The notes under the pieces: generated by a model
The model's database searches: none
Told to the model about the DNA's origin: nothing
Seen by the model: only the letters and a program-made list of their open reading frames with translations
Made by a program: the position numbers and the translations under genes
Assembly (NCBI GenBank): GCA_026002875.1
Contig: BPGE01000001.1
Span: 1,922,001 to 1,986,000, forward strand
Length of the DNA stretch: 64,000 bases
Source: Bryobacteraceae bacterium
Lineage (GTDB): Bacteria; Acidobacteriota; Terriglobia; Bryobacterales; Bryobacteraceae
Direction: 5' to 3'
In this document: piece after piece, positions 59,139-62,875 of the stretch
Layout of the letters: the number at the start of each line of letters is the position of its first letter
Position numbering within the stretch: position 1 is the stretch's first letter

Positions 59139-60569
59139 TCAGCCTTTGATCACGCCCATGGGACGCAGACGCGCCACCTTCCGCGCCAGCCCCGCCTGAT
59201 GCACCACCTCGATCACCTCGTCGACGTCCTTGTACGCCTCCGGCACCTCCTCGATGATGCCGTCGCGCGTCTCGCTGCGCACCAGAATGCCGCGCTCCTC
59301 CAGCTGCCGCTGCACCGCGCGCGCGTCCCGGCCATGCTTGGCCGCATGGCGGCTCAGCAGCCGCCCGGCCCCATGGCAGACGCTGCCGAAACTCTCCTTC
59401 ATCGCTCCTTCGCAGCCGGCCAGCACCCACGAAGCCGTGCCCATGCTGCCGGGGATCAGCACCGGCTGGCCCACCGGGCGGTAATCGGCGGGAATCTCCG
59501 GATGACGCGGCGGGAACGCCCGCGTGGCCCCCTTGCGGTGCACCAGCACGTCCACCGTGCGGCCGTTGTATTCGTACTTCTCGCGCTTGGCGATGTTGTG
59601 GCAGACGTCGTAAATCAGCCCGAGCCGCACGTGCTTGCCGAATACCTTCTGGAACGAGCCCCGGACGAAATGCAGCATGGCCTGCCGGTTGGCCCAGGCG
59701 AAGTTGGCCGCTGCGCGCATGGCCTTCAGATACGACTGGCCCTCCGGGCTCTGGATGGGCACGCACGCCAGTTGCCGGTCCGGCAGCGTGATGCCGTATT
59801 TCTTCATCGCCGCGCCCATCTGCGCCAGGAAATCCGTGCAGACCTGATGGCCCAGCCCGCGCGAGCCGCTGTGGATCAGCACCACCACCTGGCCCTCCTC
59901 CAGCCCGTAGCACCGCGCCGCCTCTTCATCGTGCACGCGGTGGACGAACTGAATCTCGAGGAAGTGGTTCCCGCTGCCCAGCGTGCCGATCTGCGGCCGG
60001 CCGCGCTCTTTGGCGCGCGCGCTCACCTCGCCGGCGCTCGCTGCCGCCAGGCAGCCGCGCTCCTCGCAGTGCTCGATGTCGGACGGCTCGCCGTAGCCGT
60101 GCTCGACCATCCACTCCGCGCCCTGCTCCAGAATCTGGTTCAGCTGCTTCTCGCTGATGTCGAGATGGCCCTTGCCGCCGACGCCGCAGGGCACGTCGCG
60201 GAACACTTGGTCGACCAGCTCTTTCAGCCGGGCCCGCACCTCGTCCTTTTCGAGATTCGTCCGGATCAGCCGCACGCCGCAGTTGATGTCGTAGCCCACG
60301 CCGCCGGGGCTCACCACGCCGCTGTCCCAGTCCATCGCCGCCACGCCGCCGATCGGGAACCCGTATCCCTGGTGGATGTCGGGCATGGCCAGCGACGGTC
60401 CGACGATGCCGGGCAGGCAGGCGACGTTCATCGCCTGCTCGAGCGCGCGGTCCTTCTCGACCTGCTCCAGAATCGGCCCGCTCGCGTAGAACAGCACATC
60501 GGTGCGCATGCCGTGGCGCGCGCCCTTCGGAATCCGGTGGCGGACTTCGTCGACGTGTTCGATCAGCAT
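59139..60569 (-). CDS. rtcB: RNA-splicing ligase RtcB
   Basis: Joins RNA 2',3'-cyclic phosphate or 3'-phosphate ends to 5'-OH ends using GTP and manganese. It has 476 residues. ATG 60569 (MLIEHVDEVRHRIP) is chosen because it matches the family start; 19 codons of open frame upstream overlap archease. The metal and guanylate residues align with studied RtcB: Cys97 (YDINCGVRL), His202 (GSGNHFLEI), His233 (HSGSRGLGHQ), His324 (DVCHNIAK) and His399 as the GMP-accepting His (CHGAGR). The archease stop is one base before its start, so the two are coupled. Confidence 0.96.
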   Translation of the reverse strand: MLIEHVDEVRHRIPKGARHGMRTDVLFYASGPILEQVEKDRALEQAMNVACLPGIVGPSLAMPDIHQGYGFPIGGVAAMDWDSGVVSPGGVGYDINCGVRLIRTNLEKDEVRARLKELVDQVFRDVPCGVGGKGHLDISEKQLNQILEQGAEWMVEHGYGEPSDIEHCEERGCLAAASAGEVSARAKERGRPQIGTLGSGNHFLEIQFVHRVHDEEAARCYGLEEGQVVVLIHSGSRGLGHQVCTDFLAQMGAAMKKYGITLPDRQLACVPIQSPEGQSYLKAMRAAANFAWANRQAMLHFVRGSFQKVFGKHVRLGLIYDVCHNIAKREKYEYNGRTVDVLVHRKGATRAFPPRHPEIPADYRPVGQPVLIPGSMGTASWVLAGCEGAMKESFGSVCHGAGRLLSRHAAKHGRDARAVQRQLEERGILVRSETRDGIIEEVPEAYKDVDEVIEVVHQAGLARKVARLRPMGVIKG

Positions 60570-60570
60570 G

Positions 60571-60987
60571 TCAGATGTCGAGGAAGACCTCGGCCTCCCA
60601 CATGCCATTGTGCTCACGGATGACAAGTTGATGAAAGGTGGCCGCCTTCACCACGATCCGCGGCGGGTGGCGCGCGTCGTCGCGCGGCTCGCCGCAGGCC
60701 AGGGCGCTGACGTCATCGCCCTCCAGCCGGAGATCGTCGAAATGCACGGGCAGGAAGCGCTCTCCGTCCAGCAGCCAGAGCACTTCGTTCAGCCAGTTGA
60801 TGAACCGGTCCTCGAGAGTCGCGCCCGTGCAGCGCAGCAGACGGCTCTCCACCGGGACGGCGCATGAAGGATTCACCGCGATCGACACCAGCGCTTCCGC
60901 CGCTTTGACGAACAGCTCTTCGAGGCTCGCGGCGCGGACGCGGAACCCCGTGTCCGCCGTATGGTCGAGCAGCTCGTAGTCCGCCAT
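60571..60987 (-). CDS. Archease, RtcB activator
   Basis: Protein of 138 residues that helps RtcB take up GTP and turn over. The N-terminal YELLDHTADTGFRVRAASLEELF and the C-terminal ATFHQLVIREHNGMWEAEVFLDI are family signatures; conserved acids include Asp8 and Asp12 and the final Asp of the C-terminus. It ends one base before rtcB, the arrangement known from many bacteria and archaea. Confidence 0.94.
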   Translation of the reverse strand: MADYELLDHTADTGFRVRAASLEELFVKAAEALVSIAVNPSCAVPVESRLLRCTGATLEDRFINWLNEVLWLLDGERFLPVHFDDLRLEGDDVSALACGEPRDDARHPPRIVVKAATFHQLVIREHNGMWEAEVFLDI

Positions 60988-62181: not shown

Positions 62182-62523
62182 TCAGGCCTCGCTCCACTCG
62201 TCTTCCTTGAACCCGAGCAGGACCTTCGAGCCGTGCACGAGAATCGGACGCCGGATCAGATTCGGATTCTCGCTCATCAGGCGCAGCGCTTCCTCGCGCG
62301 GCGGCGGATTCGTCTTCATGCCCATCGTGCGGTAGAGCTCGTTTTTCGGGTTCAGGAACTCGCCGTAGTCGCGCTTTCCGATCAGGCGGTCGAGCTCCTC
62401 GACGCTGAGGCCTTTCGACAAATCCACCACTTCCGCTTCCACCCCCTTCTGAACCAGGAAACTCCTGGCTTTCCGGCAGGTGGTTCAGGTGGGCTTGGTG
62501 TAGAACTTCGGCTTCTGTGGCAT
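62182..62523 (-). CDS. ArsC/Spx-like thioredoxin-fold reductase, probable selenoprotein (UGA = Sec13)
   Basis: Protein of 113 residues if the in-frame UGA at 62485-62487 is read as selenocysteine. The reading is MPQKPKFYTKPT-Sec-TTCRKARSFLVQKG, then NPNLIRRPILVHGSKVLLGF. UGA falls exactly where ArsC/Spx relatives have the first Cys of CxxC; Cys16 and the RRP motif (91-93) are kept. A hairpin (62452-62470) with the first loop base, G, 22 nt after the UGA fits bacterial SECIS rules. Read without Sec, only a 12-residue stub or an 86-residue fragment from an internal start remains, lacking the active site. It follows the rhodanese gene with 7 bp between. The alternatives are a nonsense mutation or a sequencing error. 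Confidence 0.78.
62452..62470 (-). promoter_or_regulatory. SECIS-like hairpin inside the ArsC-like gene
   Basis: On the minus strand AGCCAGGA-GTT-TCCTGGTT forms an 8-bp stem (one G-U pair) with a 3-base loop beginning with G. The loop starts 22 nt after the in-frame UGA. Known bacterial SECIS hairpins place the loop 16-37 nt after UGA and need a G in one of its first two positions. Confidence 0.7.
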
Positions 62524-62530
62524 GGCCGTG

Positions 62531-62875
62531 TCAGTACCGGGGAACCTGGGGATCGATCTGCCGGCTCCAGAGATCGATGCCGCCGATCAGCGACACGCAC
62601 TGCTCGACGCCCTGCCGCCGGAGCCAGTCGACCACGCTCAGGCTGCGCACGCCGTGGTGGCAGTAAATGATCAGCAGGCTTTCGTCAGCGGCCGCCTCGA
62701 TCTCCTGCAGGCGGTGCGGAACCGTGTTCATGGGGATCAGCTGCGCGCCGTCAATGCGGGCGATCTGATACTCATGCGGCTCGCGCACGTCGATCAGCCG
62801 CGCCTTGCCCTCTGCCAGCAGGCGCCGGGCTTCGTCGGGCGTGATCTCCAGGGAGAGAACGGAATCACTGCTCAT
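62531..62875 (-). CDS. Single-domain rhodanese
   Basis: Protein of 114 residues with one rhodanese fold. The catalytic Cys72 lies in the loop YCHHGVRS, of the single-domain sulfurtransferase type. N-terminal LEITPDEARRLLAEGKARLIDVREPHEY is typical. It transfers sulfur (or selenium) between carriers. ATG 62875 is chosen by family alignment. It is the first gene of a pair with the Sec-containing ArsC-like gene, 7 bp apart, suggesting related redox or sulfur/selenium chemistry. Confidence 0.9.
   Translation of the reverse strand: MSSDSVLSLEITPDEARRLLAEGKARLIDVREPHEYQIARIDGAQLIPMNTVPHRLQEIEAAADESLLIIYCHHGVRSLSVVDWLRRQGVEQCVSLIGGIDLWSRQIDPQVPRY

Follow-up and report, generated by a model that had tools for sequence, protein, structure and literature searches.

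A predicted selenoprotein of the ArsC/Spx family in Bryobacteraceae (Acidobacteriota), encoded next to a rhodanese-domain protein

Described ArsC-family selenoproteins and the Bryobacteraceae group

Selenocysteine (Sec) in the ArsC family has been documented in several surveys. An arsenate reductase selenoprotein was described in 2005 in the Sargasso Sea survey (PMC1088965) and is also listed in PMC13188914. The 2008 GOS survey gives both UxxS and UxxC forms, the latter under the name 'Arsenate reductase 2' with the assignment cd03032 (PMC2398784). In the accessible part of a survey of Deltaproteobacteria, 'ArsC-like' and 'distant ArsC homolog' selenoproteins are reported and three selenoprotein families are counted for Acidobacteria (PMC1794560). 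A recent listing of ArsC-family selenoproteins includes the model NF041106 for the UxxC form (PMC13188914). The gene considered here lies on the minus strand of a 64,000-nucleotide stretch of a Bryobacteraceae genome, referred to below as the window.

NF041106 (ArsC_rel_Se_1) resembles the window protein in its ArsC-family thioredoxin fold, N-terminal UxxC, bacterial SECIS and the existence of Cys homologues. Nevertheless, the window protein reaches 31.4 bits and other orthologues of its group 24–38, the cut-off being 85, whereas two tested members of the NF041106-type group (YHRPGU...), which is about 26–31% identical to the window protein, score 119–123. By this model, therefore, the predicted window group is a distinct subfamily. 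NF041106-type UGA genes (YHRPGUxTC) were also seen in other genera of the order, with UGA in 14 of 14 copies.

The remaining relatives are likened in different ways. The GOS 'Arsenate reductase 2' (cd03032) shares UxxC with the window group, a likeness drawn from its description and not from its sequence; the ArsC-like selenoproteins of Deltaproteobacteria are likened by description only (PMC1794560). The Sec-containing arsenate reductase with UxxS (TIGR00014) has ArsC family membership and Sec at the catalytic Cys position in common with the window protein, which differs in having UxxC and in missing two of the three ArsC arginines. Spx/MgsR (TIGR01617) of Firmicutes shares the fold, the position of CxxC, the RRP motif and a GF/GY near the C-terminus, whereas the acidobacterial window protein has predicted Sec where Spx has its first Cys and is devoid of Gly52 and the C-terminal tail. 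ArsC-like selenoproteins are thus already known, and the window group looks like an uncurated subfamily; of five UGA-form sequences run (the window protein and four relatives), none exceeded an NCBIfam cut-off. The literature on Spx-like selenoproteins yielded no link with rhodanese or Acidobacteriota, and an earlier description is possible (Haft and colleagues, cited in PMC13188914).

Reading frame, orthologues and selenocysteine machinery

The minus-strand frame 62523..62182, a predicted selenoprotein CDS, comprises 113 residues and a terminal TGA (62184-62182), and reads MPQKPKFYTKPT-U-TTCRKARSFL... with a single internal TGA at codon 13 (62487-62485), the predicted selenocysteine. Its assignment draws on PF03960, the orthologues and an AlphaFold2 model. 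Codons 1–12 (62488..62523), which precede the UGA and correspond to the β1 strand of the thioredoxin fold, are conserved as coding sequence. As the preliminary description had it, the second Cys (codon 16, TGC, 62476..62478), the RRP motif (R91-R92-P93) and the whole downstream frame up to the terminal TGA are intact; Cys16 is predicted to be the resolving residue of UxxC. The expectation that a routine gene call would miss the active site was borne out as well, for at this locus the standard ORF list holds only a GTG-started ORF of 86 aa (62442..62182, minus strand). As the UGA is read as a stop at the active site, ordinary gene callers would cut off the active end. The listed ORF could be taken at face value, the UGA closing a leader of 12 codons and the true protein beginning at GTG 62442. 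This reading is hardly credible, as its product would be devoid of β1 and the active site, while the codons 5′ of the UGA are conserved as β1 (FYxKPT) and match their counterparts in Cys forms, whose frame is uninterrupted.

The near relatives of the locus belong to Bryobacteraceae/Bryobacterales (Acidobacteriota). Among 200 sampled genomes from Bryobacterales, an orthologue, defined by >45% identity, is present in 72. Codon 13 is TGA in 57 of these and TGC or TGT in the other 15, with no other codon, and codon 16 encodes Cys in 71 of the 72. A phylum-wide sample revealed UGA forms in other Acidobacteriota families, at 16 of 18 loci examined. Comparison with Cys-containing homologues, which had been proposed as a check, thus places the UGA opposite Cys, and the same UGA recurs in relatives well beyond the genus.

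A decayed gene would likewise show a single in-frame stop near its 5′ end, and the UGA might then be an ordinary nonsense change or a sequencing error. The chance of this is practically nil: 57 orthologues of the order share this UGA at the identical codon, as do further members of the phylum, differences from same-genus relatives downstream of the UGA concentrate at third codon positions, and the hairpin 3′ of the UGA is conserved among orthologues. A sequencing error is excluded because the UGA is common to the order orthologues and the distant loci, and the pseudogene reading was rejected on the same shared UGA and hairpin. A change of genetic code (UGA = Trp) was also rejected, as UGA swaps only with Cys and both the ArsC/Spx-like gene and the upstream rhodanese gene end in ordinary TGA stops. 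Two orthologues (L092 and L102, in genomes G192 and G121) contain TAG besides UGA and are possibly decayed copies or assembly errors.

The host genome is complete, a single contig of 4.86 Mb. Profile searches found selA (500 bits), selB (354 bits, full-length, covering profile positions 1–578 of 581) and selD (354 bits), all over their curated cut-offs. A tRNA-Sec (selC) scores 75.5 bits, and ARAGORN also calls tRNA-SeC with anticodon tca. Absence of selABCD from the genome had been named beforehand as grounds for refutation, and the presence of selA, selB, selD and tRNA-Sec removes it.

The selD gene of this genome (G000:C1:3321497-3322402, minus strand) has an in-frame UGA of its own in the motif KAAGU-ASKLS, and 20 nt past that UGA begins the GGU loop of a hairpin. 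The best match to the formate dehydrogenase alpha subunit (G000:C1:3823133-3825268) contains no in-frame UGA, so that FdhA does not seem to be the reason why the genome keeps Sec. A non-exhaustive search identified two selenoproteins in the genome, the ArsC/Spx-like protein and SelD.

Among the orthologues, the state of codon 13 goes along with the Sec genes. In each of the 57 UGA genomes, selA and/or selB scores over the cut-off or nearly so; both were found in 50, and seven drafts miss one. Both genes are absent in 6 of the 15 Cys carriers (Fisher p 3e-5 against UGA carriers), a value that overstates the case, since the tree of orthologues (protein tree) needs about eight state changes in all and the sequences are therefore non-independent. 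On that tree the association between sel genes and UGA comes down to few independent events, and a tree-based independent-pair test had a single well-supported pair and adds nothing. In one genus (g2), the sel genes are present in five genomes with UGA and absent from five with Cys. The other nine Cys forms occur in genomes keeping selA and/or selB, and Sec is therefore not indispensable; such forms beside Sec genes would follow if genes can lose Sec one by one. A probable recent Sec-to-Cys change was noted in orthologue L035 (genome G086), which has TGT at codon 13 and is close to UGA relatives; its loop reads AGAT instead of AGTT, and its genome has selB and no selA match.

The hairpin downstream of the UGA

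A SECIS-like hairpin with an 8-bp stem and a GTT loop 22 nt past the UGA, as claimed in the preliminary description, was found at 62470-62452 on the minus strand. In the mRNA folding run this upper stem-loop (62452..62470) has an energy of −9.9 kcal/mol and a 3-nt apical loop GUU (62460..62462, minus strand), the G-U of which falls in the Ser21 codon AGT (62463-62461). Published limits for bacterial SECIS elements are a loop of 3–9 nt with G in the first two positions, a stem of 4–16 bp, a distance of 16–37 nt after the UGA and an MFE <= −7.5 kcal/mol (PMC13188914), and the window hairpin falls within all of them.

Taken singly, the window hairpin is mildly unusual against dinucleotide shuffles (z −2.5 for a 60-nt piece) and not significant against synonymous-codon shuffles (p about 0.12–0.15), and neither the MFE of the whole piece nor codon shuffling is decisive for the single sequence. 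It is the comparison across orthologues that lifts the hairpin above chance, the decisive tests being those of the loop codon and of UGA against Cys genes. The full set of limits, including the energy of −7.5 kcal/mol, is satisfied by 34 of the 57 UGA genes and by none of the 15 Cys genes; the 23 UGA genes that miss the strict energy limit do so in a scoring of the perfect upper stem only. In a set of 29 sequences aligned in the register of the window hairpin, 93% of stem cells pair, as against 18–60% in slid registers, and seven stem cells are changed on both sides. A second subgroup of 23 sequences pairs one register over, with weaker evidence of covariation. The loop codon for Ser21 is AGT in all 55 UGA orthologues that have Ser21; of the 208 Ser codons at other positions in these genes, 8 are AGT. 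In one family (f21) a different stem (e.g., GCAAAAGGUCUUUUGC) carries a GGUC loop, which is another sequence for the same structure.

The frame, the UGA/Cys conservation, the Sec machinery, the SECIS conservation, the fold and the gene order were computed here. The sel genes, the orthologues and the SECIS comparison together support the original proposal of a probable selenoprotein with UGA at the catalytic Cys position. On comparative grounds, this ArsC/Spx-family gene of Bryobacteraceae is almost certainly a genuine bacterial selenoprotein gene, with Sec predicted at codon 13.

Fold, rhodanese neighbour and proposed role

Read with C for U, the protein matches PF03960 (ArsC) at 9e-20. The AlphaFold2 model of the predicted selenoprotein has a pLDDT of 91.6 and displays the Spx/ArsC fold, i.e., a thioredoxin-like fold with the ArsC/Spx insertion. 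Its fold matches include 3gkx, an ArsC-family protein of Bacteroides (Z 17.6), and 1z3e, Spx (Z 16.1), over 109–111 residues; ArsC structures are among the matches with Z 14–16.

The Pfam domain and the ArsC structures among the fold matches would suit a selenium-containing arsenate reductase. That identity is nevertheless very unlikely. The motif is UxxC rather than the C/UxxS of arsenate reductase, and the TIGR00014 score of 47 bits falls well short of the cut-off (106). Only one of the three catalytic arginines of glutaredoxin-type ArsC is kept (R92). The second and third, R60 and R107 in the R773 protein, align with Asn58 and Phe105, and no ars genes are present among the neighbours scanned.

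Spx-type regulators offer another comparison. CxxC is the redox switch of Spx, and Gly52 of Spx is needed for binding the polymerase alpha-CTD. Spx is among the best sequence and fold matches, and the best NCBIfam model is TIGR01617 (Spx/MgsR), for which the window protein scores 72.8 bits against a cut-off of 75.05 and one Cys orthologue 84.5 bits. The protein could then be a redox-sensing RNA polymerase-binding regulator whose CxxC switch has turned UxxC. We regard this as unlikely, though less so than arsenate reduction: the position of Gly52 is occupied by a nearly invariant Asp52 in the orthologues, the C-terminal tail of Spx is absent, the Spx subfamily model PRK01655 gives 58 against a cut-off of 123, and the neighbouring gene encodes a sulfurtransferase. 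With two ArsC arginines and the Spx glycine missing, the evidence speaks for a shared fold and supports neither function. The earlier label 'ArsC/Spx-like' thus stands for the fold, on the model and its Z scores, and is unsupported for arsenate reduction and Spx function, for which key residues are missing.

The sulfurtransferase in question is a rhodanese-domain protein of 114 aa with an intact CHHGVRS loop (62531..62875, minus strand; PF00581, 1e-16), a probable operon partner whose gene ends 7 nt upstream of the ATG of the predicted selenoprotein. Among 30 orthologous loci with long flanks, 20 have a rhodanese gene next upstream on the same strand, no more than 69 nt away, and 10 lack it. 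Such a gene also adjoins some Cys forms. Downstream on the same strand, at 59139-60987 of the window, the genes for RtcB RNA ligase and archease, a known functional pair, overlap; the position of archease is conserved in several relatives.

How Sec is inserted in vivo, how the protein would work as a thiol/selenol oxidoreductase and on which substrate is inferred as follows. SelB with Sec-tRNA-Sec would bind the hairpin just 3′ of the UGA and thereby place selenocysteine at codon 13, after which translation would stay in frame up to the TGA at 62184-62182. The product would consist of one ArsC/Spx-family domain with the thioredoxin fold, and its U-x-x-C active site would open helix 1. Most likely, Sec13 would act as the attacking selenolate and Cys16 would resolve the intermediate as a selenenylsulfide. 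The likeliest substrate would be a persulfide or disulfide that the rhodanese encoded upstream carries or produces. A persulfide or disulfide role together with a sulfurtransferase is favoured because many relatives have the rhodanese gene immediately 5′ of this one; that the Sec/Cys thiol oxidoreductase has such a rhodanese-linked substrate is a tentative proposal, to which we would give a little less than an even chance. About evenly balanced is the broader reading of the group as an uncurated selenoprotein subfamily of Acidobacteriota, namely a Sec-containing Spx-like redoxin, paired with rhodanese in Bryobacterales, that may reduce or relay persulfide sulfur (or selenium) and switches from Sec to Cys upon loss of the Sec machinery.

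Throughout this phylum of common soil bacteria, annotations of the gene are likely to be wrong, the active site being lost each time. Moreover, where Sec and Cys switch within a genus along with the loss of sel genes, nature provides an experiment on the benefit of Sec, and the rhodanese partner offers a concrete idea of the substrate that is open to testing.
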